Shown here: in pieces, positions 2,360 to 42,238 of the stretch
Numbering within the stretch: position 1 is the stretch's first letter
How the letters are laid out: the number at the start of each line of letters is the position of its first letter
Source of the DNA: Tepidicella xavieri
Lineage (GTDB): Bacteria > Pseudomonadota > Gammaproteobacteria > Burkholderiales > Burkholderiaceae_C
Reading direction: 5' to 3'
NCBI RefSeq assembly: GCF_004363315.1
Contig: NZ_SNYL01000010.1
Location: 1 to 64,000 of the forward strand
DNA: 64,000 bases
Translations under genes and position numbers: made by a program
The notes under the pieces: generated by a model
The model's input: the letters and a program-made list of their open reading frames with translations, nothing else
Told to the model about the DNA's origin: nothing
Databases searched by the model: none

Positions 2360-4632
2360 CACACACCTCCCCAATACTGTCCCCAGCGCAGGCCGTAGCC
2401 CGCGCGATCCAAGACACGCACCTGGGGCTGCCAGCTGCTCAAACCATCGCGCTCGGCACGGATCTCGACCGTAATGCGGTCGCCCAGCGCACCGGTATCC
2501 AGCGCGGCCACGGCCGCCGTCCAGACGTAGGTGGTGCCAAGCAGCCCCGTTTCCGTGTGCGCCAGCACGTTGTTGCGATTGCGGATGCCTACCGTATAGG
2601 TCACGCCCGATTCTGGCCCGATATCGCCTTCGTCCTGCCGCACGAGGTAGGCGGTCTGCTGCGTGCGGTCACGATGTGCCCACGCGACGTTGAGATCACC
2701 GGCCACAACGGCAGGCTCAGTCTGGCCATTGAGGCGGATACGACCGGGTGGATATGGCAAAGCCTGCCGACCAGCGAGCACCATCGGCTGCCCATTAGCG
2801 GCCAGCAGAGGATCGCCCTGATCGGTCGACGTGCGAGGCATCGCGCCCACGAACACCGACTCGCCCGGGGCGCGCTCCGCGCCTTCCGATGCCAGCCATT
2901 CGCCGACACCGATCAGACGAGCCCCCGAGGCATGTGCTTGGGGTGTGGTGTCTAGTACGCCGCGTGCAAGGTCAACCGTGGCCGCAGTGGTATCGAAGTC
3001 CAGGACAGCGACGGCTTCGCGGATTTCACCGCTGCCATCGACCAGATAGGCGTAGTCGCCCACGGCCAGTCTTTCCGGCTGGCTGATGGCCGTCACCGGC
3101 ACACCGATGGCATCGGCCTCACTGGCTGGCAAGGCGGCATCGAGCGTCAGCAGCGGCGCATAGTCCTCGCCCACGACGGCAGTGAGGTCGCCGCCGGATG
3201 CGCCGGTAGCCAGTTGCCAGTTCAGTTGCCCGGTGCCACCGGCGGCAGCCAGCGCTCCAAGATAGGTGTCCGTGTCGGTCAGGTAGGCCAGATCTGCGCG
3301 CGACAAGCGCCGGGCCAGTTCCCAATACGGCACTTCGACGGCCAGTACCAAGGCGGGCGGCAAAGGTTCGATGGTCGGCTCATCGACGTGCGGTGGCGGG
3401 GGCGACAACACGGTGTTGCTCATCCCGAACACATCTTCCATCGCTTCGATGCGCCACTCGGCCGCGCCCAAGGTGCCGGTGTCGATGCCGGTGACGCGCA
3501 CCACCATCTGATCCACACCCAAACGCGGCCAGTTCAGCAGAAACACATCGCCCGGCAGCGGCGCACGGGGAAGCCGGTCGCGCGCCACGGTCAGACTCAT
3601 CCGGGCCAGGGGTGAACCCAAGGCGCGCAGGTCACGCAAGGCCAGCCGGGCAGCCAGCGGCCCGTAGTTGACGCCCGGGTAGTCGCGGCGCTGATTGATC
3701 ACGCCGCCTTGCAACTGGATGGCGGCCAGGTTCTCGACGGTGACCGTCGCATCACCGCCCGTTTGCCAGTCGGTGTAGACCACGGTCAGTTCGTTGGGCA
3801 GCTCGCCCCACTGGGCGCGCTCAAAGCGTTCCAGCCGCACGATTTCGTCAGGTCCCAACTGCGGCAGACTGTCGATCCAGTAGTCGTCACGCAGCAGCTT
3901 GAGTTCAAACGTGCCTTGCTCCGGATCGGTGTAGAGGATGCCGCCAATGTGGTCGACGACCTGGCCGATGAAGCTCTCGATGGGCTGCTGGCGCGTCCAG
4001 ATCAAATTGAGGCCGAAGCCCTCGCTCGACAACGCCCATGCCGCGTTCCAGAAGCTCCAGCCGATGGTGCTGTGCGGATAGCCCATGCCCCAGTGCGGAT
4101 CGGTGAGGCACTGAACCAGGATGTGCGCCGGGTTCATGCCGACGCTGATCTCACGGGCCTCAGTCTCATCCCAGGTGCGGACTTCGGCGTTCCACGCCAT
4201 CCACGGCGCATCGAACCAACCCGCCGTGAAGCGACGCACCCGTACCGCCCATGGCTTGATGTACGGGTTGTTGGCCGCGAACAGGATCTTGCGCGCCACC
4301 AAGGACAGCACACCTCGGAATGCCGGAATGGAACTGCCGAGACGGCTCATCAGGTAGTCGTTACGCCCCTGACCAGCATGGCCCGACAGCACATCGATGG
4401 TGCCCACGACGCCGCCTTCGCGCTCGTCGCCGCCAAACAGCGTGGGCTTGTTGATCGAGAGGCTGGTCAGCCCATGCCCGTTCGGTAGCGGCGCACGGTC
4501 GGCATCGCCCCACGCGGTACGGTCGCCCATCTGGATTTCCTGCACGGCATCGACGGGCCCTTGGCACAGGGCCAGATGCAGCCCCATCCGGTAGCGGTAG
4601 CCGACGGTTTGCTTTTTGCTACGCCCGCCCAT
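2359..4632 (-). CDS. Phage tail tip / host-specificity (J-like) protein
   Basis: A 757-residue protein beginning MGGRSKKQTVGYRYRMGL. The N-terminal third carries the pattern of baseplate-hub and tail-tip proteins (QTVGYRYRMGLHLALCQGPVD, LMSRLGSSIPAFRGV, NPAHILVQCLTD, WTRQQPIESFIGQVVDHIGG). The C-terminal half looks beta-rich and fibronectin-like (YLVRQDEGD, WTAAVAALDTG). Such proteins cap the tail tube and often contact the receptor. It lies between small tail-assembly genes and the glycosyltransferase, as J does in lambda-like tails. The exact subfamily (PF13550-like) is my estimate. Confidence 0.75.
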   Translation of the reverse strand: MGGRSKKQTVGYRYRMGLHLALCQGPVDAVQEIQMGDRTAWGDADRAPLPNGHGLTSLSINKPTLFGGDEREGGVVGTIDVLSGHAGQGRNDYLMSRLGSSIPAFRGVLSLVARKILFAANNPYIKPWAVRVRRFTAGWFDAPWMAWNAEVRTWDETEAREISVGMNPAHILVQCLTDPHWGMGYPHSTIGWSFWNAAWALSSEGFGLNLIWTRQQPIESFIGQVVDHIGGILYTDPEQGTFELKLLRDDYWIDSLPQLGPDEIVRLERFERAQWGELPNELTVVYTDWQTGGDATVTVENLAAIQLQGGVINQRRDYPGVNYGPLAARLALRDLRALGSPLARMSLTVARDRLPRAPLPGDVFLLNWPRLGVDQMVVRVTGIDTGTLGAAEWRIEAMEDVFGMSNTVLSPPPPHVDEPTIEPLPPALVLAVEVPYWELARRLSRADLAYLTDTDTYLGALAAAGGTGQLNWQLATGASGGDLTAVVGEDYAPLLTLDAALPASEADAIGVPVTAISQPERLAVGDYAYLVDGSGEIREAVAVLDFDTTAATVDLARGVLDTTPQAHASGARLIGVGEWLASEGAERAPGESVFVGAMPRTSTDQGDPLLAANGQPMVLAGRQALPYPPGRIRLNGQTEPAVVAGDLNVAWAHRDRTQQTAYLVRQDEGDIGPESGVTYTVGIRNRNNVLAHTETGLLGTTYVWTAAVAALDTGALGDRITVEIRAERDGLSSWQPQVRVLDRAGYGLRWGQYWGGV

Positions 4633-4931
4633 CAGTCGTGCTCCCGCTGGCTGGACTGATTGCGTGCGTGCTCGACCACCCGCTGCGCCATGGCATCGCC
4701 GGTGGCCAGCAGGATGTCGGCGTCACAGCCATCGCGCAGGAAGGCGCGGAAGTCCAGATCGTGGCGCGCAAACCATGTGCGTGTTCCGTTCACGCAAAGG
4801 CCTGCGGCGCGCACGTGATCGATGGTGATGACGGTCTGCGTGGTCTCAAGAAACACGCCGGGCCGCCCCAAGTGTTTCTTGGCCCCTTGAGGGGCAAAAC
4901 GAGCGAAGCGAGTTTCGGGGTGTGGGATCAC
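4632..4931 (-). CDS. Conserved small phage tail-region protein with REP-derived N-terminus
   Basis: A 99-residue protein. Residues from about 35 onward (VITIDHVRAAGLCV, WFARHDLDFRAFLRDG, ADILLATGDAMAQRVVE) match a small protein often found beside the J-like gene in siphophages; its function is not known to me. Residues 1 to about 33 are encoded by palindromic, REP-like DNA that looks inserted. The first possible start is a GTG overlapping the upstream stop (GTGA at 4928-4931); the GTG at VITIDHV would give a 65-aa protein closer to the likely ancestral form. The gene abuts the tail-tip gene. Confidence 0.65.
   Translation of the reverse strand: MIPHPETRFARFAPQGAKKHLGRPGVFLETTQTVITIDHVRAAGLCVNGTRTWFARHDLDFRAFLRDGCDADILLATGDAMAQRVVEHARNQSSQREHD
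4847..4895. repeat. REP-like palindromic element inside a coding region
   Basis: A perfect 10-bp inverted repeat CAAGAAACAC (4847-4856) / GTGTTTCTTG (4872-4881) is followed at once by a second palindrome GCCCCTTGAGGGGC (4882-4895). Compact double hairpins of this kind are typical of dispersed intergenic repeats in Comamonadaceae-like genomes. Here the element is read through as the N-terminal part of a phage gene. Confidence 0.6.
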
Positions 4932-5155
4932 TTTTTGCCACCTTTCTTCTTGATCGGATCGGCTTCCAGATCGCCGTACCAGACGACGTTGGAGCCGCGC
5001 AGCAGCACGGTGCCGAACACGACGGGAATCGGTCGGCCTTCTTCTGCGGTGGGGGCATCGACGTCGGACAGGGACGCCGGTTTGGGTTCGGGCGGTTTCG
5101 GGGCGAGCGCGACCGAAACCAGCGCCGCCACCACGAGGACGACGAGGTACCACAT
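4928..5155 (-). CDS. Small membrane-anchored phage tail-assembly protein
   Basis: A 75-residue protein with one N-terminal transmembrane or signal-anchor helix (MWYLVVLVVAALVSVALA), a proline-rich stretch (PKPPEPKPASL) and a conserved GRPIPVVFGTVLLRGSNVVWYGDLE core, ending in a Lys/Gly-rich tail. The core motif also occurs at the N-terminus of larger tail-tip proteins in this phage group, so it probably takes part in tail-tip assembly. It overlaps the next gene by GTGA, and an AGGAG lies upstream of its ATG. Confidence 0.7.
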   Translation of the reverse strand: MWYLVVLVVAALVSVALAPKPPEPKPASLSDVDAPTAEEGRPIPVVFGTVLLRGSNVVWYGDLEADPIKKKGGKK

Positions 5156-5157
5156 GG

Positions 5158-5313
5158 CGATTTCTCCTGGGATTCAGAACACGCCCGTCGAGAACGGGTT
5201 CTTGCTCGGGATGGCGGGAAAGCCGCCGTAGTTGTGGCTTCGGCCGCCGCTGCGCGGCTTCACGTCGGCTGTGCCGACATGGGCCTTCGCCGAAACGCTG
5301 CGGTTTTCGGTCA
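5158..5313 (-). pseudogene. Vestigial second copy of the BR0599-protein C-terminus
   Basis: Just after the stop of the BR0599-family gene another frame reads NYGGFPAIPSKNPFSTGVF-stop, matching the true end of that gene (ENFGGFPFIPTKNPFSGTPIF-stop). About 90 bp of non-matching, hairpin-containing sequence separates the two ends. No start or ribosome binding site precedes this copy, so it looks like a leftover from recombination or insertion at the 3' end of the gene. Confidence 0.6.
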
Positions 5314-6102
5314 GAAGATCGGTGTGCCGCTGAAGGGGTTCTTCGTTGGAATGAACGGGAATCCACCGAAGTTTTCGAGGTTGCCGAAGCGCGACTCGCA
5401 GGTGGCCGTGCTGTGGTCGCAGCCTACCGTCAGCAGCACTTCGGTGCCGACCTCAAAGGCGACCGGATAGAGCAACTCGACGCCGCCACCGTAGTCACTG
5501 ACGATCATGTGGCGGGCACCTGCCGGGGTTTGCAACCAGCCACCGGCCAAGCCACCGCTGACGCTGCCGGGCGTGCCGCCGTCGAAATCGACGTTGCGGC
5601 CATAGCTGTTGCTCACGATGGCACTGGCGGAAATGGGTGAGGCACCACAGGCTGCCGAATACAGCACGTGGGAACACTTGCGGCTGTAGAGCCGCCGCAA
5701 CCCGATGCGCTTGAGGCTGACTTGCGCCGACTCGCAGCGAACACGAGCCACATCGTCAGCGACTTCGACGCCCAGCACCCGGCCCATCCAGCGCGTGCCG
5801 GAGATCCACCAGTAGTCGCCCCAGGTGTCACGTCGACCGATGCGCAGGGTGATCGAGGTGGTGTCACCGGTCAGCGAGTTGGCGAGCAGATGGCGCACCA
5901 CATCACAGTTCGGCGGCAGTTTCAGATCCAGCCCAGCCTTCGCAGCTTCAGCACCCAGCGCCAGTTCGTTGCGCTCGATGGCAAGGCTCTGATAACGGTT
6001 GCCGTCGAGATCGACGTCGAATTCGTGGGGCGTCAGGAAGAACTGGGCGGTGTTGCTGGCGAAGGCGTATAGCTCGACTTCCAGCAAGGGGTTCTGGCTC
6101 AT
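5311..6102 (-). CDS. Phage BR0599-family tail assembly protein
   Basis: A 263-residue protein starting MSQNPLLEVELYAF. Features of the BR0599 family are a central GTRWMGRVLGVEVADDVARVRCES segment, a cysteine-containing block (SRKCSHVLYSAACGASP) and the C-terminal signature CDHSTATCESRFGNLENFGGFPFIPTKNPF. Members are tail proteins conserved in siphophages and GTAs (the rcc01695 group), probably minor tail-tip components; the cysteines might bind metal. It sits between the 523-aa protein and the J-like cluster. The C-terminus appears duplicated just downstream. Confidence 0.85.
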   Translation of the reverse strand: MSQNPLLEVELYAFASNTAQFFLTPHEFDVDLDGNRYQSLAIERNELALGAEAAKAGLDLKLPPNCDVVRHLLANSLTGDTTSITLRIGRRDTWGDYWWISGTRWMGRVLGVEVADDVARVRCESAQVSLKRIGLRRLYSRKCSHVLYSAACGASPISASAIVSNSYGRNVDFDGGTPGSVSGGLAGGWLQTPAGARHMIVSDYGGGVELLYPVAFEVGTEVLLTVGCDHSTATCESRFGNLENFGGFPFIPTKNPFSGTPIF

Positions 6103-21569: not shown

Positions 21570-22129
21570 CAGTCCACCCGTGGACGCAGCTCGCCCAGTT
21601 CGATCAGGTGCTCACGCACCGCCGCCTCCAGGGCGATGTGCATCGTGTGCGGATCGACGCCGAGCTTGGCTGCCATCTGTGCCGAGATGCGTGCGGGCCA
21701 GTTGAGCCACGCATCGCGTTCTGATCGCGCCAACTTGAAAACATGGGCGATGGCCTGCGGCCGATCCACCAGCTCGCCTTTGAGACGGGCCAGGCGCACC
21801 TTGTTGGTTTGCGCCTTGACCACCTCGTTGACCGTGCGCGCCTGCAGCAGCGAGGTGCCGCCCGCCGACATCGGCGGCGTGCTGGCGTCGATGGCATCGC
21901 GCTGCGGTATTGCTTCGGCTGGTGCACGTCGCGTCTGCGGCGTGCTGATCTTTTGCTGCGTGGCGGCGCGTCGTGGTTGCAATGTGTTCTGTGCCCACTG
22001 CGCGTCCGCCGCATCCGGGTCAATCGTGCCGTCCGGCAGCGGCGTGATCCGCCCGGTGTCGATGGCCTTCTTCACGGCCACGTGCGACACGCCACGGTGG
22101 CGCGCGTAGGCGCGAATGGACAGTCCCAT
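21569..22129 (-). CDS. Terminase small subunit (Nu1-like)
   Basis: A 186-residue protein. An N-terminal winged-helix DNA-binding motif (MGLSIRAYARHRGVSHVAVKKAIDTGRITPLPDG) recognises the packaging site in relatives. A proline/alanine-rich linker (about 45-95) leads to a helical C-terminal part (VNEVVKAQTNKVRLARLKGELVDRPQAIAHVFKLARSERDAWLNWPARI) that contacts the large subunit. The ATG at 22129 has GAAGAAGG upstream; the longer frame would start with TTG. First gene of the late minus-strand block. Confidence 0.85.
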   Translation of the reverse strand: MGLSIRAYARHRGVSHVAVKKAIDTGRITPLPDGTIDPDAADAQWAQNTLQPRRAATQQKISTPQTRRAPAEAIPQRDAIDASTPPMSAGGTSLLQARTVNEVVKAQTNKVRLARLKGELVDRPQAIAHVFKLARSERDAWLNWPARISAQMAAKLGVDPHTMHIALEAAVREHLIELGELRPRVD

Positions 22130-22170
22130 CGTCACCTTCTTCAATCATCTGTTCGTCAATCTGCGAATTG

Positions 22171-22202
22171 AGCTTGGCTTCCATCGGGAACAGCGCGTTC
22201 AT
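22171..22202 (+). repeat. Leader element copy 1 (before DUF6900 gene)
   Basis: AGCTTGGCTTCCATCG is followed by GAACAGCGCGTTCAT (22188-22202), 34 nt before the ATG. The same 15-mer occurs before the next two plus-strand genes. This copy keeps only the right arm of the hairpin seen in copies 2 and 3. Confidence 0.7.
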
Positions 22203-22236
22203 CACGTCACGCCAACCATCCCCGAAAGGAAACGCC

Positions 22237-22443
22237 ATGAACCAGATCGACACCGTCCTCACCCTGATCGCCCGCAAGCACCTGGGCATCGACACCCTGC
22301 AAACCCGACACGCCGACAGCCTCGATTTCCACGACGTGGCGGTGTGGTGCCTCAAGGACGCGCTGGAAGCGGCCTTCAAAGCGGGCGTCGAACTCGGCGC
22401 ATCGAGCCAGAAGGCCACGGAAGCGGATATCGCCGAGGACTGA
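22237..22443 (+). CDS. DUF6900-type small protein
   Basis: A 68-residue acidic protein starting MNQIDTVLTLIARKHLGIDTLQTRHADSLDFHDVAVW. The pattern LDFHDVAVWCLKDALEAAFKAG is that of DUF6900, found in mobile elements of Betaproteobacteria; its function is unknown. GAAAGGA lies 6 nt before the ATG. It is the first of three plus-strand genes against the flow of the prophage operon, and all three carry the same leader element, suggesting a co-regulated cargo module. Confidence 0.7.
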   Translation: MNQIDTVLTLIARKHLGIDTLQTRHADSLDFHDVAVWCLKDALEAAFKAGVELGASSQKATEADIAED

Positions 22444-22455
22444 TTGGAAAGCAAC

Positions 22456-22503
22456 GAAGCCAAGCAAAAAACGCTTGGCTTCACCGCCGAACAGCGCGTT
22501 CAT
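22456..22503 (+). repeat. Leader element copy 2 (hairpin plus 15-mer)
   Basis: A 10-bp inverted repeat GAAGCCAAGC / GCTTGGCTTC with a 7-nt loop (22456-22482) is followed after 6 nt by GAACAGCGCGTTCAT (22489-22503), 36 nt before the DUF3489 start codon. The hairpin could end or attenuate transcription of the previous gene; the 15-mer holds an imperfect palindrome GAAC-N5-GTTC. Confidence 0.75.
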
Positions 22504-22539
22504 CGCGTCACCCGATCAACCTCTGCGAAGGAGCAGACC

Positions 22540-23103
22540 ATGACCACCACCACCCTGACCCCCGCCCAGCACGCCATCCTCGCCCACGCCATCCACCACA
22601 CCGGCGGCAAGATCGAGTGGTTTCCCGAGCACATCAAAGGCGGTGCCCGCCAGAAAGTGCTCGACGGGATGTTCAACCGCGCCCTGATCACGCCCGATGG
22701 CGAGGGCTGGCGTGTCGCCGCCGAGGGCTACGACGCCTTGGGGCTGGCTCGCCCTGGCCTCGGCAACCAGCGCATCGGTCGATTCGAAGCCCGTCTCGAC
22801 CGGATCATCGCCAACGCTGAAGCCGCACAAGCTGGGACGGGCGATCCTGAACTGGAGGCTGCGGTTGCGGCGGCAGAAGCCACCTGGGCCAAGCCGCGCA
22901 CCCGGGCGAACAGCAAACAGGCCGAGGTGATCCGGATGCTGCAACGCCCCGAGGGCGCCACGGTCCGCCAGATTTGCGAGGCCACCGGCTGGCAGCCCCA
23001 CACGGTGCGCGGCACCTTTGCCGGCGCCTTCAAAAAGAAGCTCGGTCTGAACCTCGTCTCCGAGAAGTCTCAGGGCGGCGAGCGGGTCTACCGCATCGCC
23101 TGA
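22540..23103 (+). CDS. DUF3489-domain protein
   Basis: A 187-residue basic protein. An N-terminal domain (LTPAQHAILAHAIHHTGGKIEWFPEHIKGGARQKVLDGMFNRALI) looks like a winged helix. A variable linker follows, and then the C-terminal DUF3489 domain (NSKQAEVIRMLQRPEGATVRQICEATGWQPHTVRGTFAGAFKKKLGLNLVSEK), a helix-turn-helix-like fold. The family is common in phages and integrative elements; DNA binding is likely, but the target is unknown. A GAAGGAG precedes the ATG. Confidence 0.75.
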   Translation: MTTTTLTPAQHAILAHAIHHTGGKIEWFPEHIKGGARQKVLDGMFNRALITPDGEGWRVAAEGYDALGLARPGLGNQRIGRFEARLDRIIANAEAAQAGTGDPELEAAVAAAEATWAKPRTRANSKQAEVIRMLQRPEGATVRQICEATGWQPHTVRGTFAGAFKKKLGLNLVSEKSQGGERVYRIA

Positions 23104-23120
23104 GCAGAAAGATCGAGAAA

Positions 23121-23164
23121 GAAGCCAAGCAGCGCTTGGCTTCTCAATCGAACAGCGCGTTCAT
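23121..23164 (+). repeat. Leader element copy 3 (hairpin plus 15-mer)
   Basis: GAAGCCAAGC (23121-23130) pairs with GCTTGGCTTC (23134-23143) over a 3-nt loop; after 6 nt comes GAACAGCGCGTTCAT (23150-23164), 36 nt before the ATG of the 122-aa gene. Arms, order and distance to the start are conserved with copy 2, while the bases between vary. Confidence 0.75.
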
Positions 23165-23200
23165 AGAGCCATCGCAACGATCCACCGAACGGAGCCCACG

Positions 23201-23569
23201 ATGACGACCCAGCAGACCATCCCCGTCACCCAGAACGCAGCCTGGGGCTTTTGGGGCACGATGAACGAGCACGCCAGCGCCGCATGGCCCCTGGCGATGA
23301 CCGCGATCTCGGATGCCACCGGCCAGCCCCTCGAATCGGTTCGGGCCTTCCTCGACAGCCGCCACGGCCGCCACTTTGCCGACCACGTCCAGAACGGACT
23401 GTACGAAGGCAAGGCCCTGGCGGACGCGATCCACGCCGCCACCCGGCAATGGATGGCCTGGACCATCGGACGCCAGACCAGCAAGGACTACGGCATCCCG
23501 CGCGGCCTGCCTTACCTGACGGGCTTTGTGATTCACTGCGAGATCGTCGAGGAATCGCTGGCCGCGTGA
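23201..23569 (+). CDS. Small protein of unknown function (third gene of leader-element set)
   Basis: A 122-residue protein starting MTTQQTIPVTQNAAWGFWGTM. It looks compact and alpha-helical (AWPLAMTAISDATGQPLESVRAFLDSRHGRHFADHVQNGLYEG, then ALADAIHAATRQWMAW); I recognise no family. Proteins of this kind accompany DUF3489 genes in Burkholderiales mobile elements. A CGGAG lies upstream of the ATG. Its last 37 bp overlap the 3' end of the convergent methyltransferase gene. Confidence 0.65.
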   Translation: MTTQQTIPVTQNAAWGFWGTMNEHASAAWPLAMTAISDATGQPLESVRAFLDSRHGRHFADHVQNGLYEGKALADAIHAATRQWMAWTIGRQTSKDYGIPRGLPYLTGFVIHCEIVEESLAA

Positions 23570-26522: not shown

Positions 26523-26945
26523 CTATCTGCGCTCATTCGCGTTCAAAGACGATACCGCGACGGTGCAATCGTTGAGCTGGTCAGCCACCGTCTGCAGCGC
26601 CCGCTGCCAGCGCCGCCACGCGGTGGTGCGGTCGCAGGCGAAGCGGATCGTGATGTCCCTCCAGCCGTAGCGCTTGGCCCGCATCCACACCAGGTGGCGC
26701 TGCTCGACCTCCAGCCACTGCACCCAGCGCATCGTCTCCAGCATCCGGTCGATGGCCTCGGGGCTCGGTGGAAAGGGGCGGTAGACCTTCTCGTCTGCTG
26801 CGAAAGCCTCCCACTCCTTGCGCACGAAGGCCGGCCAGGTGTTGAAGTAGCCCTGCACGCGCACCGGGGGCAGGCGCCGCCCGGTGTTTGCCGCCTCCTC
26901 GAAGCGCGCCGCCACGTCCTCAACCGTCCAGTCCTTGCGGGCCAC
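26523..26945 (-). CDS. DUF6362-family phage protein
   Basis: A 140-residue protein. The GTG start is preceded by AGGAGGTG, an almost perfect Shine-Dalgarno. The sequence follows the DUF6362 pattern (WTVEDVAARFEEAANTGRRLPPVRVQGYFNTWPAFVRKEWEAF, then MRWVQWLEVEQRHLVWMRAKRYGWRDITIRFACDRTTAWRRWQRAL). The end looks like a helix-turn-helix, as in RinA- or terminase-type regulators; it may control late genes. It follows the resolvase gene directly. Confidence 0.75.
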   Translation of the reverse strand: MARKDWTVEDVAARFEEAANTGRRLPPVRVQGYFNTWPAFVRKEWEAFAADEKVYRPFPPSPEAIDRMLETMRWVQWLEVEQRHLVWMRAKRYGWRDITIRFACDRTTAWRRWQRALQTVADQLNDCTVAVSSLNANERR

Positions 26946-27559: not shown

Positions 27560-29854
27560 TTAGTCGTCCGCGTAAGGGGTGTAGGAAGCGGTCGGCGGGT
27601 GCTTGAGGCCAATGCCTTGAAACCCGCGCACGCCCATGCCGTTGCGCCATTTGTCGAACCCGCGCGTGATCAGCAGATCGGAGAAGCGTCGCTGTGCGCC
27701 GACAAACTCGCCCGCGGCTTCGGCCCACTGCCGCCAGTCGTTGAACAGCTCGGCAGTCAACGACTTGGCGTTGGGCTCGCGCACGCAGCGCTCATCGAGC
27801 CAGCGTCCCAGCGCGTCCTCGGCCTCGAAGTACTCCTCGGTGGCTTCCACCACGCAGCGCGGCGGATCGAGCCGCCCCAGCCTCTGCCAGGCGAGGCACC
27901 CTTCGACCGCCCAGGCCAGGATGCCGTCGCGCTCGGCCAGCAGCTTCTGCTGGAGATGCTTGTCGCGGCGCTCGGGCGGCACCGTGATCGTGAAGGGGAT
28001 CAGGTGCAGTCGCCGCTTCATCGCCTCGTCAATGTTGCGAATCGCCGGTTTGTGGTTGCCCGCCACGAACAACTTGAACTGCGGGAAGAACTCGAAGAAG
28101 TCCTGCCGCATGAAGCGCGCCGAGATCTTGTCGCCGCCGGTGAGGCTCTTGACCTTGGACTCGGCCCAGCGCCGGCCCTGCTCGGTCTCGATCGCTGCCA
28201 CAAAGCGCGCGCCGCGCAGGCCCGCCATATCGGTCGGGTGGCGGTCGCTGCGCGTTTCCATGAAGGTGTCCATCGGCGCACTGGTGGCGTAGTCGCCCAG
28301 GATGGTGGCCAGGGTGTTGACGAACACGCTCTTGCCGTTGGCTCCCGTGCCGTACAGGAAGAACAGCGCGTGCTCCTGCGTCGAGCCGGTCAGCGCATAG
28401 CCCGCCATGCGCTGCAGGTAGGCCTGCAACGCGGCATCCCCGCCGGTCACTTCGGCAAGGAACTGCCTCCACGTCGGGCAGTCGCCGCCCGGAGTGGCTG
28501 CGGTGATCTTGGTCATCCGGTCGGCACGGTCATGCGCGCGCATCCGTCCCGTCTTGAGGTCGACCACCCCGCCCGGCGTGTTGAGCAGCCAAGGGTCGGC
28601 GTCCCACTCGGCGGTGGTCGCGGCATGACGTCGATCCGAGCGGGCCAAGCGTTCCACCCCGCTCACGGTGCCGGAGGTGGCGAGCTTGGCGGCCACTTTG
28701 GGGTTGTCGGCGCGCACTGCCATCTGGCGGCACACACTGCGGATCAAGTCGGTGGCCGCCAGCGTCTCCTCGTGACGCCAGCGCCGCCCATCCCACACCA
28801 GCCAGCGCCCCCATGCCGCCACGTAGCGCCAGTCACGGTGATAGCGCCGGGTGAAGGCCAGTGCCAGCGCATCCTCCGTGCCCCACACCGACTCGTCGCT
28901 GCTGACCACCGGCTCGTCGGCATCGGCCACGTCGTGCATCTGCACGCGCGGGCCGTGGGTGAGGAAGGTGGCGACATCGAAGCCCTCGGCCACGGCGTCC
29001 GCCGCGTCCCAGCCCTCGGCGGCCTCCTCGGGCGGGTAGAGGATGTGGCAGGACTTCGCGCCCGCTGCCAGAACGGCCTGCGCCGCCTGCACCGCGTACT
29101 CCCAGCCCGGCTTGTCGCGGTCGGGCCAGATCAGCACCGCTTTGCCCGCCAGCGGCGACCAGTCGGTCTTGTCCACCGGGGCGTTGGCGCCGTGCATCGC
29201 GGTGGTGGCCACGAAGCCCGCGTCGATCAGCGCCTGCGCGCATTTCTCGCCTTCGACCAGCACGACCTGCGCGGCACTGATCATCCCGGGCTGGTTGTAG
29301 AGCGGGCGCGGCTCGGGCGGGGTCATCTTGCGGCGGCGCGCGTCCCAGGGCCGGAACTGCTTCTTCTGACCGGGCGGGTCGTAGCGGTAGACGACGGCGA
29401 TCAGCCTGCCTGCCGCATCCAGGTAGTCCCACTTGGCGGTGGCGGGGCCGAGTTCATCGACCGGCATGCCCTTCTTGCTGGCCTTGCGTACTGGTGCGGA
29501 GCGCGAGCGTCCGAGCAGATCGGAAGCCTCGTCGAGCACACGCGGAAAGTCGCTCAGCACGTCGATACCGAGGTGCGCGGCGATCAGGTCGAAGATATCG
29601 CCACCATCGCCAGTGGCGCGATCCGTCCAGAGGCCAGCCTTCTCGCCGTCGAGCACGATCTCCAGGCTGTCGCCGGGGCTGCCCAGCACGTCGCCGATTA
29701 GGAACTTGCCACGACGTCTCTTGCCTGCTGGAAACAGCGTGGCCAGCACCGAGGAAAGGCCTGCAATCAGCCCGACCCGTAGTTCCTCGCGTTCCCTGTC
29801 ATTAAGGACGCGCCGGGGTTCGACGGTTAATTGGGTGTCGTTGAAGTCAAGCAT
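27560..29854 (-). CDS. Phage primase-helicase (P4 family, fused Toprim and SF3/D5 helicase)
   Basis: A 764-residue replication protein. The N-terminal half has a Toprim-type segment ([39 protein letters not shown]). The C-terminal half is a P4/D5 helicase: Walker [20 protein letters not shown], a [39 protein letters not shown] core, [10 protein letters not shown] and RRLHLIPF. The ATG at 29854 is 8 nt after GGAGG; an earlier GTG lacks a spaced site. It overlaps the sigma-like gene by 8 bp. Confidence 0.9.
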
Positions 29855-30443
29855 CGGCGGCACCTCCGATCACATCGGCGATGCCGGCCAGCTCCTGCGG
29901 GATGCGAGACTTGTGGCGCAACTTGCGCAAGGCCTTTGCTTCGATTTGACGGACGCGCTCGCGCGTGACTTCCATCTTCTCGGCGATCTCATCCAGCGAG
30001 GAATCAGAGAAAAAGCGCTCGCGAATCACGCTGGCTTCACGCGGCGTCAGCGAGTCAAGAGCATCCTGAATGATGCGGCTTGCCTGCGCATGGCTGGCCA
30101 GTCGCAAAGGATCGGCTGACGCCCCTCCACCGGCCAGTGCCTGCATGCTGTCTGCATCCAGATCGATGCTGGAATGATTCTTCGCCAGTGGCTGAAGTTG
30201 AGCGTCCGACCAAAGATCGGAGGGCGATGCGTTCAGGAAATCGCACAAGGCCCACGCGCATTCACGCAATAGCCCGTCCGGTGTCAATGGTGAGCGCGTG
30301 AGATTGATGTACGGCAATAATGCCCCGTAGTAGCTGATGCCGACGGCAGCTGCGAAAGGCGCGCCTGGCCTGTGGCCCGCACGCTCGATGGCACGCAGCA
30401 GACGGGCATTGCGTACGGAAATGCGAACACGGTAGTCACTCAT
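29847..30443 (-). CDS. Phage regulator: HTH domain joined to sigma70 region 4
   Basis: A 198-residue protein in two parts. The first ~90 residues look like an XRE-type helix-turn-helix with the phage pattern [42 protein letters not shown]. Residues about 124-180 are almost a host RpoD region 4 ([43 protein letters not shown]), which binds -35 elements. It may redirect RNA polymerase to phage promoters. It overlaps the primase gene by 8 bp, suggesting joint control with replication. Confidence 0.8.
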
Positions 30444-35235: not shown

Positions 35236-35712
35236 CTACCCGAGGGACGCGATCAAGCGGCGTTGCTCATCCCAGTCCAAAGGCACCTTGGCCCGCAGCA
35301 GGGCTTCCAAGGACACCGCCCGGGGCAGCCGTCCTTCGTAGGCGGCCTGGATGATGTCGGGGGCGAGAAGCGCCAGCCGCAGCAGATCGTTGACGGTGGA
35401 ACGGTGGATGCGCTCCCGTTCGGCGATCTCGGTGCCGCTGGCCACTGTTCCGTTGTCGATCAGCTGCTGCCAGTAGATGCCACGTCCCAGTGCCTTGAGC
35501 AGAGGGCGATCCTGTTCGGGGGAAAGCACCGGGGTATCGGTAACGGCGACAGGCTGGCTGACGCCTTCCGGTGCGACGATCACCTTCTTGACGCCGCGCT
35601 TCTTGAAATGAAATGGCACGAAAGTCGTGATCCGGACACCGCCGCCTTCCAGCGGGTGGTGGCGCTCGTGGGGTTTGCCATCGCTGACCAGCTTCTTGGA
35701 CGAGCGGTTCAT
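35236..35712 (-). CDS. ParB-like HTH protein linked to recombinase
   Basis: A 158-residue protein starting MNRSSKKLVSDGKPHERH. The C-terminal half (LLKALGRGIYWQQLIDNGTVASGTEIAERERIHRSTVNDLLRLALLAPDIIQAAYEGRLPRAVSLEAL) looks like a helix-turn-helix of the KorB/ParB kind. In mobile elements this family lies next to a serine recombinase, as here (4-bp overlap), so it may influence integration or excision. The function is inferred from context. Confidence 0.65.
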   Translation of the reverse strand: MNRSSKKLVSDGKPHERHHPLEGGGVRITTFVPFHFKKRGVKKVIVAPEGVSQPVAVTDTPVLSPEQDRPLLKALGRGIYWQQLIDNGTVASGTEIAERERIHRSTVNDLLRLALLAPDIIQAAYEGRLPRAVSLEALLRAKVPLDWDEQRRLIASLG

Positions 35713-37076
35713 GGGACAAGCTCCATTTCCAGCATTTCGCCCCCAATGCTGTTCGCCTGCAACTCACCGGCCAGATCCCGCCATCCCGACTCACGCCAGA
35801 CGATGTCGATGCCATCGGAGAGGAGCTGGACACGCTCAATCAGCAGGTTGACCAGCCGCACCTGTTCAGCGGGGAACAACTGCTTCCAGACCTCGCCGAG
35901 GCGGCGCATGGCCAGCACGGTGGTTGGCTCGTCGATCTCCGGGTAGTTGATGCGCACCGTGTTCCAGACCCCTTGGATGCTTTCGGGCGACTGGAGCGCG
36001 CCCACCAGCAGGTTCACCACCACTTCCTCGATCTGGTCGGCCGGGATCATCCCGGTGGCGCTGCTGCGGTAGCCGTAGCGGCTGTCCGCCTTAGGGATGT
36101 AGTAGCGGTACTTCTTGCCCGAGGGCTTCTTGCTGTAGGTGATGTGGTACTTGCCACCATCAGGGCCGTACATCAGTCCGCGCAACAACGCATCGGTCTT
36201 GTGCCGGGTTTGGGTCTTGCCCATGCGCTGGTGAGCATCCTCGGCGAGGATGGCTTGCACGCGATCCCAAAGCTGGCGGGTGATGATCGGCTCGTGCTGT
36301 CCAGCAAACACCTCCCCTTTATGGCGGATCTCGCCAACGTAGATTGGATTGCGCAGTACCTTAGAGATGTACTTCTTGTCCATTGGCGTGCCGTTGCGCA
36401 CGCGGCCATCCTTCAGGCGGTTGGGCTTGGTAGTGATTCCCTCCAGGGCCATCTCGCGGACGATATCCGTGATGGAGCGTGTCTCAGTGAAGCGCGTGAA
36501 AATGCGTCGGATGGTTTCGGCATCCCTCTCCTCGATGACCAGCTTGCGGTCTTTGACCTCGTAGCCCAGCGGGGTGTAACCGCCCATCCACAGGCCCTTG
36601 CGCTTGCTGGCGGCGATTTTGTCGCGGATGCGCTCGCCGGTGACTTCACGCTCAAACTGCGCGAAGGACAGCAGGATGTTCAACATCAGCCGTCCCATCG
36701 ACGTGGTGGTGTTGAATTGCTGGGTAACCGAAACGAACGACACCTTGTGGCGCTCGAACACCTCCACCAGCTTGGCGAAGTCGGTGAGGCTGCGTGTCAG
36801 GCGGTCGATCTTGTAGACGATCACGATGTCAATTTGGTCGGCAATGATGTCGGCCATCAGTCGCTTCAAGGCCGGGCGCTCCATGTTGCCTCCCGAGTAG
36901 CCGCCGTCGTCGTAGTCGTCGGCCACCGGCAACCAGCCCTCGGCACGCTGGCTCACGATGTAGGCTTGGCCCGCTTCGCGCTGGGCGTCGAGGGAATTGA
37001 AGGATTGGTCGAGGCGCTCGTCCGTGGACACGCGGGTGTAGACGGCGCAGCGTTTCTTGGTCACGACAGTGCTCAC
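35709..37076 (-). CDS. Large serine recombinase (likely phage integrase)
   Basis: A 455-residue site-specific recombinase. The resolvase domain has the nucleophile Ser17 in YTRVSTDERLDQ, then IVYKIDRLTRSLTDFAKLVEVFE and FAQFEREVTGERIRDKI. The Recombinase domain follows (TPLGYEVKDRKLVIEERDAETIRRIFTRF, KVLRNPIYVGEIRHKGEVF). The usual zinc-ribbon cysteines are absent (LMYGPDGGKYHITYSKKPSGKKYRYY). Start is GTG (GTGA overlap with the DUF2924 gene). It is the only integrase-class enzyme seen. Confidence 0.85.
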   Translation of the reverse strand: MSTVVTKKRCAVYTRVSTDERLDQSFNSLDAQREAGQAYIVSQRAEGWLPVADDYDDGGYSGGNMERPALKRLMADIIADQIDIVIVYKIDRLTRSLTDFAKLVEVFERHKVSFVSVTQQFNTTTSMGRLMLNILLSFAQFEREVTGERIRDKIAASKRKGLWMGGYTPLGYEVKDRKLVIEERDAETIRRIFTRFTETRSITDIVREMALEGITTKPNRLKDGRVRNGTPMDKKYISKVLRNPIYVGEIRHKGEVFAGQHEPIITRQLWDRVQAILAEDAHQRMGKTQTRHKTDALLRGLMYGPDGGKYHITYSKKPSGKKYRYYIPKADSRYGYRSSATGMIPADQIEEVVVNLLVGALQSPESIQGVWNTVRINYPEIDEPTTVLAMRRLGEVWKQLFPAEQVRLVNLLIERVQLLSDGIDIVWRESGWRDLAGELQANSIGGEMLEMELVP

Positions 37077-37543
37077 TTGGTGCCTCGCTTCTGCTTGTTC
37101 TTGTTGTTCTTGGTGATTCCGAAAAACAGCGGCCCTGACCACTGCGTGCCGGTGATGTGGCGGGCGACGCCCGACAAGCTCTTGAAGCGACGGCCTTCGT
37201 ATTCAAAAGTGCCGTCCGCCTGCGCGGTAACGCGGTGTTCGCGGTTGTCGAATTCCCGTACCAAAACGGTTCCGGGAACGACCTGGACTTCGACGCCACG
37301 CTGCGTCTTGATGTTGGATTGAGCTTCGCCGATCCGTGCCAGTTGCGTCTTCACGAGCAGGGTGGTACCCAGCGCCTCCTCCTGCATCTTGTAGGCGACG
37401 CGGCCTTCGACATAGGCCCGGTTATGGTGCGGTGGTCGCTGCGGGAAATACTTGTCCCAAAGCGCCCACAAGTCTTTCATGGACAGCTTTGGCAAATTGG
37501 CGATTTGCACCGCCAGGGACGGTGGTGTCTTTGGTACGTTCAC
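37073..37543 (-). CDS. DUF2924 protein (recombinase partner)
   Basis: A 156-residue protein starting MNVPKTPPSLAVQIANLPKLSMKDLWALWDKYFPQRP. The pattern NRAYVEGRVAYKMQEEAL, LVREFDNREHRVTAQADGTFEYEGRRFKSLSGVARHITGTQWSGPLFFGI is typical of DUF2924, which is regularly encoded directly before a serine recombinase. Its role is unknown; a DNA-binding accessory factor is plausible. Joined by GTGA overlap downstream and ATGA overlap upstream. Confidence 0.85.
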   Translation of the reverse strand: MNVPKTPPSLAVQIANLPKLSMKDLWALWDKYFPQRPPHHNRAYVEGRVAYKMQEEALGTTLLVKTQLARIGEAQSNIKTQRGVEVQVVPGTVLVREFDNREHRVTAQADGTFEYEGRRFKSLSGVARHITGTQWSGPLFFGITKNNKNKQKRGTK

Positions 37544-37740
37544 TTGAAAACTCCTTCTGTAGAGGGGTTTGTATGAACGCGCTCGGGTGCCGAGAAGCCA
37601 AGTGGAATATCGCTGTCTTGCGGACGCGTGGAATGCAAGCGTGCGATGGCGGCCGCGATGATTTCTGCGGCCTCGCGTGCCCGTTGCCGCGGCGACATCA
37701 ATTCAGGGAGTGTTGGTTCGACGGTCATTTCGGTAGCCAT
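37540..37740 (-). CDS. Small protein heading the recombinase cassette
   Basis: A 66-residue protein, probably starting at the ATG before ATEMTVEPTLPELMSPRQRAREAAEIIAAAIARL. It has one amphipathic helix and a low-complexity C-terminus. It overlaps the DUF2924 gene by ATGA. No family is recognised; small frames of this type head other DUF2924-recombinase cassettes. Confidence 0.55.
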   Translation of the reverse strand: MATEMTVEPTLPELMSPRQRAREAAEIIAAAIARLHSTRPQDSDIPLGFSAPERVHTNPSTEGVFK

Positions 37741-41862: not shown

Positions 41863-42238
41863 TGGTGGAGCTGGGGGGAATCGAACCCCCGTCCGCAAGC
41901 CTTCTTCGCGCAGTTCTACATGTGTAGTCGTCTGATTGGATCTCGCCTGACAAGCTGCGCAGCGACACGCTGCAAGCCAAGCCAGCAACCTTGGGTCTCA
42001 CTGCCAGGCAAGTTGCCCGCCTGACAGCCAGCCTATGTGAATTCCCTCGCAGTCAGGACGGCTTTGCAGCCACCCTCACCCAGCCCACAGGCCAACTGTT
42101 GCGAGGCTCGCCGGATTAGGCGGCGAGTGTGAAACGTTCGTCGTTTGCAGTTACTTTTTTTCTGCGGTTTAACGAGGTGACAGAACCTCGACATGCCCTG
42201 CTGCGTGCCCGAACCCACGTCGAAACCAATGCAGCCCC
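41863..42238 (-). ncRNA. ssrA: tmRNA (transfer-messenger RNA)
   Basis: The 5' end GGGGCTGCATTGG and the 3' end with a tRNA-Ala-like arm (GGTTCGATTCC loop, ...AGCTCCACCA) are both present, giving 376 nt. The tag frame (42148 down to 42116) reads ANDERFTLAA-stop, a betaproteobacterial SsrA tag. tmRNA frees stalled ribosomes and marks the incomplete protein for degradation. The gene is a common integration hot spot, and the prophage cargo ends about 260 bp past its 3' end. Confidence 0.97.

Follow-up and report, generated by a model that had tools for sequence, protein, structure and literature searches.

A 31-nucleotide bipartite box, predicted to be a portable promoter, precedes small cargo genes in prophages of Tepidicella xavieri and in other mobile elements

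Why do three neighbouring prophage genes of different sequence have nearly the same sequence in front of their start codons? The question is raised by the stretch of 64,000 nucleotides of Tepidicella xavieri contig NZ_SNYL01000010.1 that was analysed here (the window). The window contains a prophage on the minus strand, with genes for a lambda-type portal protein, a gpA terminase, ParB-like methylases and a D5-type primase as well as DUF2924 and serine-recombinase genes. Three small plus-strand genes lie between the minus-strand terminase/portal and methylase genes, and thus oppose the operon around them, as the initial annotation had said. Gene 1 (22237..22443, +) encodes a DUF6900 protein of 68 amino acids (Pfam PF21841, E 9e-24; phrog_2555), gene 2 (22540..23103, +) a DUF3489 protein of 187 amino acids (Pfam PF11994, E 5.8e-33), and gene 3 (23201..23569, +) a protein of 122 amino acids that belongs to phrog_8020 and to no Pfam family. 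An AlphaFold2 model of the DUF3489 protein (mean pLDDT 83, pTM 0.41) has winged-helix-like domains predicted at both ends, and its Foldseek matches were weak winged-helix matches only, none with E <= 0.001; the model of the gene 3 product is nearly all-helical (mean pLDDT 88.2), and a fold search with it gave no match at E <= 0.001. The coding parts had been called unrelated, which is correct at the level of sequence, but a DUF6900 domain was found inside DUF3489 proteins in three of the five that were scanned (loci L289 and L303 and, just below the Pfam cut-off, L306); this domain arrangement makes a functional link between genes 1 and 2 probable. Anti-defence and host take-over roles are usual for such phage cargo; no PADLOC defence model matched any of 10 proteins examined, the three of the window included.

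What the three genes share is a bipartite box of 31 nucleotides, GCTTGGCTTC-N6-GAACAGCGCGTTCAT, in which N6 is variable and the spacing is constant: in all three window copies, GCTTGGCTTC ends 6 nucleotides 5' of the 15-mer GAACAGCGCGTTCAT. Exact matches to the 15-mer are found in the window at 22188-22202, 22489-22503 and 23150-23164, all on the plus strand, and at no further position. They are followed by the ATG codons at 22237, 22540 and 23201 after gaps of 34, 36 and 36 nucleotides, in agreement with the 34-36 nucleotides originally reported. The complete boxes are copy 1 (22172..22202, +; N6 is CATCGG), which is the first in the cluster, copy 2 (22473..22503, +; ACCGCC) and copy 3 (23134..23164, +; TCAATC). 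With a position matrix built from 550 pattern-selected copies, whose column frequencies are biased and which include the window's own three through the fetched loci, these score 50.1, 49.5 and 52.1, respectively; a weaker fourth copy (ACTTGGCTTC-TCGGCA-CCCGAGCGCGTTCAT; 37573..37603, -) scores 21.7, no other site in the window exceeds -0.4, and the best score among 12 block shuffles of the window, both strands considered, was 0.5. Copy 4 is situated 29 nucleotides 5' of the GTG codon of a DUF2924 gene (37073..37543, -; PF11149, E 3e-41), which is followed by a serine recombinase gene (35709..37142, -; PF00239 and PF07508) as the second gene behind this copy.

The association of the box with gene starts was examined by searching viral contigs with the three window proteins only and then inspecting the upstream regions of their relatives. 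The best 80 relatives were taken for each protein (out of 538 for DUF3489, 503 for phrog_8020 and 112 for DUF6900). Of these 240 loci, 70 were duplicates and 4 had too short an upstream stretch, which left 166 distinct ones. Within 200 nucleotides upstream of relatives chosen thus by protein similarity alone, the box is present in 162 of 166 distinct regions (59 of 60 for DUF3489, 53 of 55 for phrog_8020 and 50 of 51 for DUF6900), and three of the four box-less loci retain a decayed or spaced-out copy, as judged by eye. These 162 copies, referred to below as unbiased, are free of pattern selection, but a matrix score of at least 20 was required of them. Over all loci, 573 distinct copies (matrix score of at least 25 and enough flanking sequence; all totals are lower bounds) precede genes of 36 clusters, 24 with at least two members and 12 singletons. 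Among further cluster representatives, nine of 10 scanned have no Pfam family, and the one that has is a DUF932 protein. Start codons were called for 565 of the 573 copies, and 543 are located 27-45 nucleotides downstream of the box, compared with 285 of 1716 positions (17%) drawn at random from the same loci; by a stricter start score, the numbers are 369 of 573 box copies and 45 of 1716 random positions. The initial annotation had named a scatter of the element over random places, away from starts, as the finding that would count against it, and the opposite was found. That the box tracks gene starts and not random places strongly supports the idea of shared control.

The box is far more widespread than its three copies in the window, so that the original observation is right, yet understates the case. 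A second prophage of the same genome, on contig C5, has three more copies in a similar cluster and one before its DUF2924 gene. A scan with a 30-nucleotide pattern gave at least 120 stretches in viral contigs and at least 116 in genome contigs; the hosts among the matches listed are mostly Beta- and Gammaproteobacteria, and they are joined in the list by a Nitrospira with a complete chromosome and by a few bins from metagenomes that bear the labels of other groups. When 274 genomes of the class were scanned, T. xavieri included, 12 had a match at up to 3 mismatches, and the imperfect matches may in part represent a different element; six genomes have an exact copy, and a reversed control pattern had no match. 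Among published phages, Acidithiobacillus phage AcaML1 (JX507079) has the same box, with four copies in the 40.5 kb examined of its 59.4 kb, and, like the window prophage, it has a copy before its DUF2924 and recombinase genes; the feature table of this 40.5-kb stretch consists of CDS only. No mention of the box was found in literature searched for the box sequence, DUF3489, DUF2924, DUF6900, DUF6362 and AcaML1; the string matches, among those listed, are to GCTTGGCTTC alone and not to the rest of the box. The searched literature yielded nothing for DUF6900 or DUF6362; DUF3489 appears in PMC4520260, and DUF2924 appears in literature on Wolbachia.

Arrays of box genes were also seen, with at least four genes in locus L199 (about 3900-6000, -; from a Lysobacter metagenome-assembled genome that has no DUF3489 match) and at least six in locus L228 (about 3000-5700, +). 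In locus L193 (1500-4600, -), a lone box gene of cluster 8 lies beside genes that by eye look like serine-recombinase and restriction-type genes, and the box may be used in non-phage integrative islands as well. The entry 'srrA' in the attB table for AcaML1 is taken here to mean ssrA. The window contains a tmRNA gene (41863-42238, -) about 4 kb beyond the recombinase genes, and its prophage may use the same attachment site (ssrA/tmRNA) as AcaML1, for which a table of PMC3826726 gives attB as 'srrA'.

With 24 multi-member clusters and 12 singletons behind one box, and with a gene order that varies, the repeats might be thought to exchange cargo genes by recombination at the box, either integron-like or belonging to some other cassette recombination. 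The attC site of integrons is a folded recombination site with R' and R'' boxes that is used by an integrase. The box, however, stands at a fixed distance and in a fixed orientation to starts, and it also precedes integrase genes; moreover, leader and N6 together often track the gene family (by eye), which fits the movement of whole cassettes. Recombination at the box is therefore considered highly improbable. The modular gene exchange that had been suggested is upheld as an outcome, in that the box recurs with many genes as a cassette of box plus gene, whereas nothing marks the box itself as a recombination site.

Upstream of copies 2 and 3, the 10-bp hairpin noted in the initial annotation was located at 22456..22482 (+; between genes 1 and 2, with arms 22456-22465 and 22473-22482 and a 7-nucleotide loop) and at 23121..23143 (+; between genes 2 and 3, with arms 23121-23130 and 23134-23143 and a 3-nucleotide loop); in each, the right arm is the first block of the box. 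Folded as RNA, the copy-2 hairpin has -18.5 kcal/mol (z -4.8) and the copy-3 hairpin -19.8 kcal/mol (z -4.0); copy 1 has the right arm only (22172-22181), and its leader folds like shuffled sequences (z -0.08). For a comparison across loci, a copy was classed as first if no other box lies within 2.5 kb upstream on the same strand and at least 2.5 kb of flank is available, and as internal if another box lies within 2.5 kb; 92 copies fell into neither class and were left out. A stem of at least 6 bp with the first block of the box is possible in none of 107 first copies and in 151 of 374 internal copies (it is impossible in the other 223), and after shuffling of the upstream sequence it is possible in 1 of 573 copies. 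First copies have a median fold z of 0.19, internal copies one of -2.33. The hairpin is thus ruled out as a part of the element: because the stem depends on the upstream neighbour, hairpin and box are separate things.

The hairpin is best interpreted as belonging to the 3' end of the preceding gene, where it would act as a terminator, an insulator or an RNA stabiliser, with the GCTTGGCTTC block of the next box doubling as its right arm. Among 180 internal copies whose stem is in register, where the left arm has changed opposite a T, the new base is G in 129 and C or T in 49, a pattern that favours an RNA stem, though transitions are common anyway. A terminator scan gave none on the plus strand, and the hairpin has no T-run, so that "terminator" is used of it here as a putative role. 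The third copy of the C5 prophage has no left arm; a separate GC-rich hairpin with a short T-run lies upstream of it (L313, about 4420-4530; L008, 4437-4470). In the single-strand promoters of plasmid leading regions, the promoter lies in an obligatory hairpin; the box is unlike these, given that a stem of at least 6 bp with the first block is impossible in all 107 first copies.

The same data bear on whether the box acts as RNA, that is, as a 5' leader controlling the translation or stability of each mRNA. The tight distance from box to start codon would suit such a leader, as would a possible 4-bp GAAC/GTTC stem inside the box. The outer pair of this stem, however, is formed in 94 and broken in 68 of the 162 unbiased copies, without compensation, and the large hairpin is open to none of the first copies. 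In a consensus fold of 40 of 129 dereplicated leaders, none of four pairs has a double change, which is uninformative because the pairs are invariant there. The Rfam covariance models gave no match to the box at the gathering threshold; one sub-threshold microRNA match (24.1 bits, threshold 100) covers the copy-3 hairpin on the minus strand. An RNA leader is accordingly regarded as very unlikely. Shared RNA or operator control had been proposed from the three window copies: shared control is supported by the 543 of 573 copies at starts and an operator is possible, while stem and Rfam results speak against RNA.

Column by column, the 162 unbiased copies have two near-invariant blocks around a variable N6, with positions 28-29 alternating between CA and AC. 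Beyond the box, there is a pyrimidine at position 36 in 161 copies, a purine at 37 in 151 and a pyrimidine at 38 in all 162. A pyrimidine-purine (YR) step at 36/37 is found in 73% of 117 leaders (collapsed at 65% identity), the highest value of the 14 offsets examined, and its frequency is close to what the two column frequencies give when multiplied, which indicates conserved columns and not coupling. In the window copies, TTGGCT stands 17 nucleotides before GTTCAT. On the minus strand, the box can be read as a ribosome-binding site and the start of a small ORF (GGTGA-N4-ATG AAC GCG CTG TTC), in which the reverse complement is translated as MNALF..EAK and TCACC at 35-39 serves as the Shine-Dalgarno sequence. 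The ATG is lost in copies with GTTACT, CTTAAT or CTGAAT, position 28 is A in 55 of the 162 unbiased copies, and TGA in N6 stops the frame, for instance in window copy 3; the copies without ATG and the N6 stops largely refute this ORF start, which retains scarcely any probability.

Two blocks at a spacing like that of -35 and -10 regions, a YR step 6-7 nucleotides past the box and a diverged family that keeps a frame of 31-32 nucleotides together lead us to infer that the box is a portable promoter that accompanies each cargo gene, a prediction in which we have a fair measure of confidence. The 10-nucleotide block GCTTGGCTTC would be the -35 region, and the 15-nucleotide block, ending in GTTCAT or GTTACT, an extended -10 region. 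The transcript is predicted to begin with the purine 7 nucleotides past the box, leaving a leader of about 28-30 nucleotides before the start codon, and each box gene would be transcribed as a unit of its own, in the manner of phage moron cassettes. The diverged family consists of nine DUF3489 leaders from more distant genomes, CT(T/G)GAT(A/G)...GGCTNNAT, with a frame of 31 nucleotides in five and 32 in four. These have only the outer frame and the ends in common with the window box; the YR step at 36/37 is present in seven of the nine and absent in two, and the start codon lies 36-52 nucleotides further, a looser placement. A DUF3489 protein from this group had no relatives in viral contigs. 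The GC-rich leaders of alphaproteobacterial DUF3489 genes (71 distinct) were rejected as instances of the same skeleton, since they do not keep the 31-nucleotide frame (GCTTGG to CAT spans 26 nucleotides). Genes of this alphaproteobacterial type (L448-L527) have a conserved leader of their own, often with a GC hairpin, followed by CTCGTAGAAG and GCAT (by eye, in most of the 71).

If the box is a promoter, it is not a canonical one. With a TTGACA-like -35 hexamer, a TATAAT-like -10 hexamer with A2 and T6, and a spacing of 16-18 taken as the definition of a canonical sigma-70 promoter, a scan of 22100-23300 found none. TTGGCT agrees with the sigma-70 consensus in 4 of 6 positions and GTTCAT in 3 of 6, at a spacing of 17, and the lack of A at position 2 of the second hexamer led to rejection of the box as a promoter of this canonical type. 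Transcripts of canonical promoters begin 6-8 nucleotides past the -10 hexamer, and the counterpart in the box is the pair of conserved YR columns at 36/37. Positions 16-24, which are spacer in an ordinary promoter, are conserved as strongly as the ends of the box; the reader should therefore be something other than the plain sigma-70 holoenzyme.

Candidate readers were sought among the prophage proteins. One is a sigma-like protein of 198 amino acids (29847..30443, -) with a C-terminal sigma-70 region 4 (PF04545, E 1.6e-19). It was rejected as a required reader because contig C5, with four boxes in its prophage, lacks a match to it; other matches in the T. xavieri genome are on contigs C2, C16, C15 and C12, and in box-bearing AcaML1 none was significant in the 40.5 kb examined (of 59.4 kb). 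The region 4 of this protein is RpoD-like (TRERVRQIE), whereas its N-terminal part has no Pfam match, including none to sigma region 2, and is HTH-like in appearance, which makes it an unusual phage transcription protein in itself. Another is the DUF6362 domain protein (HTH-like; 26586..26879, -), which is encoded in 38 of 45 box-bearing genomes, a set picked by hand from box-search matches plus the T. xavieri genome; it too was rejected as a required reader, for lack of a significant match in the same 40.5 kb. Within that stretch, AcaML1 differs from the window prophage in both respects. The third is DUF3489 itself, and none of the three candidates tested is strictly required.

DUF3489 is also the best candidate, as an autoregulated protein, for the regulator in a different reading. 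Here the box would serve as operator to a conserved regulator of mobile elements and would overlap or replace part of a weak host promoter, with cargo genes and integrase as the regulon. A length of 31 bp is great for sigma contacts alone, and the conservation of positions 16-24 would also suit an operator. The modelled winged-helix-like folds at both ends of the DUF3489 protein, whose own gene has the box, are compatible with such a role. DUF3489 is found in 41 of the hand-picked 45 box-bearing genomes and in AcaML1, and above cut-off in five of six genomes with an exact box against 1 of 268 others (apparently the same draw of 274 genomes). Any gene that belongs to this type of prophage would, however, be expected to co-occur with the box in this way; the box occurs without DUF3489 in four genomes (G321, G632, G642 and G646), and where DUF3489 clades have other leaders, this may just reflect phylogeny. 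An operator is considered rather unlikely, and a promoter appears to fit the geometry of the box better.

The promoter reading can be carried one step further, although only tentatively and as a view more likely wrong than right, to a dedicated class of mobile-element promoters. A factor other than plain sigma-70, either encoded by the elements or broadly supplied, would read the 31-bp box in several host groups (one complete Nitrospira chromosome included) and drive small cargo genes and the integrase as a dispersed regulon, into which cargo would be recruited by gaining a box. The box predicts one shared regulator for cargo genes, and once its reader is identified, it should become clear by what means hosts of very different kinds express one and the same cargo. 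The box is also a handle on many small genes of mobile elements that have not been studied (36 clusters) and an easy tag for cargo in metagenomes.

As a kind, the box resembles the promoters of phage morons and the control sites of phage regulons. Like moron cassettes, the window genes are small, with their own control region and often a 3' hairpin, and they run against the neighbouring operon; they are accessory genes among phage genes and have their own orientation, on the plus strand between minus-strand terminase and methylase genes. Moron promoters are usually individual, whereas the control box described here is near-identical across many unrelated gene clusters (24 of them multi-member) and many hosts. 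With sigma-70-type promoters the box has in common the two blocks, TTG at -35, the 17-nucleotide spacing, the YR step and a short leader, and it differs from them in its second hexamer (GTTCAT or GTTACT, without A at position 2) and in its conserved spacer positions. The regulons of P2 Ogr and Mu C comprise late or middle phage genes with a known activator. As in these, one conserved box would govern several phage genes, but here it is cargo genes and an integrase operon that have the box.
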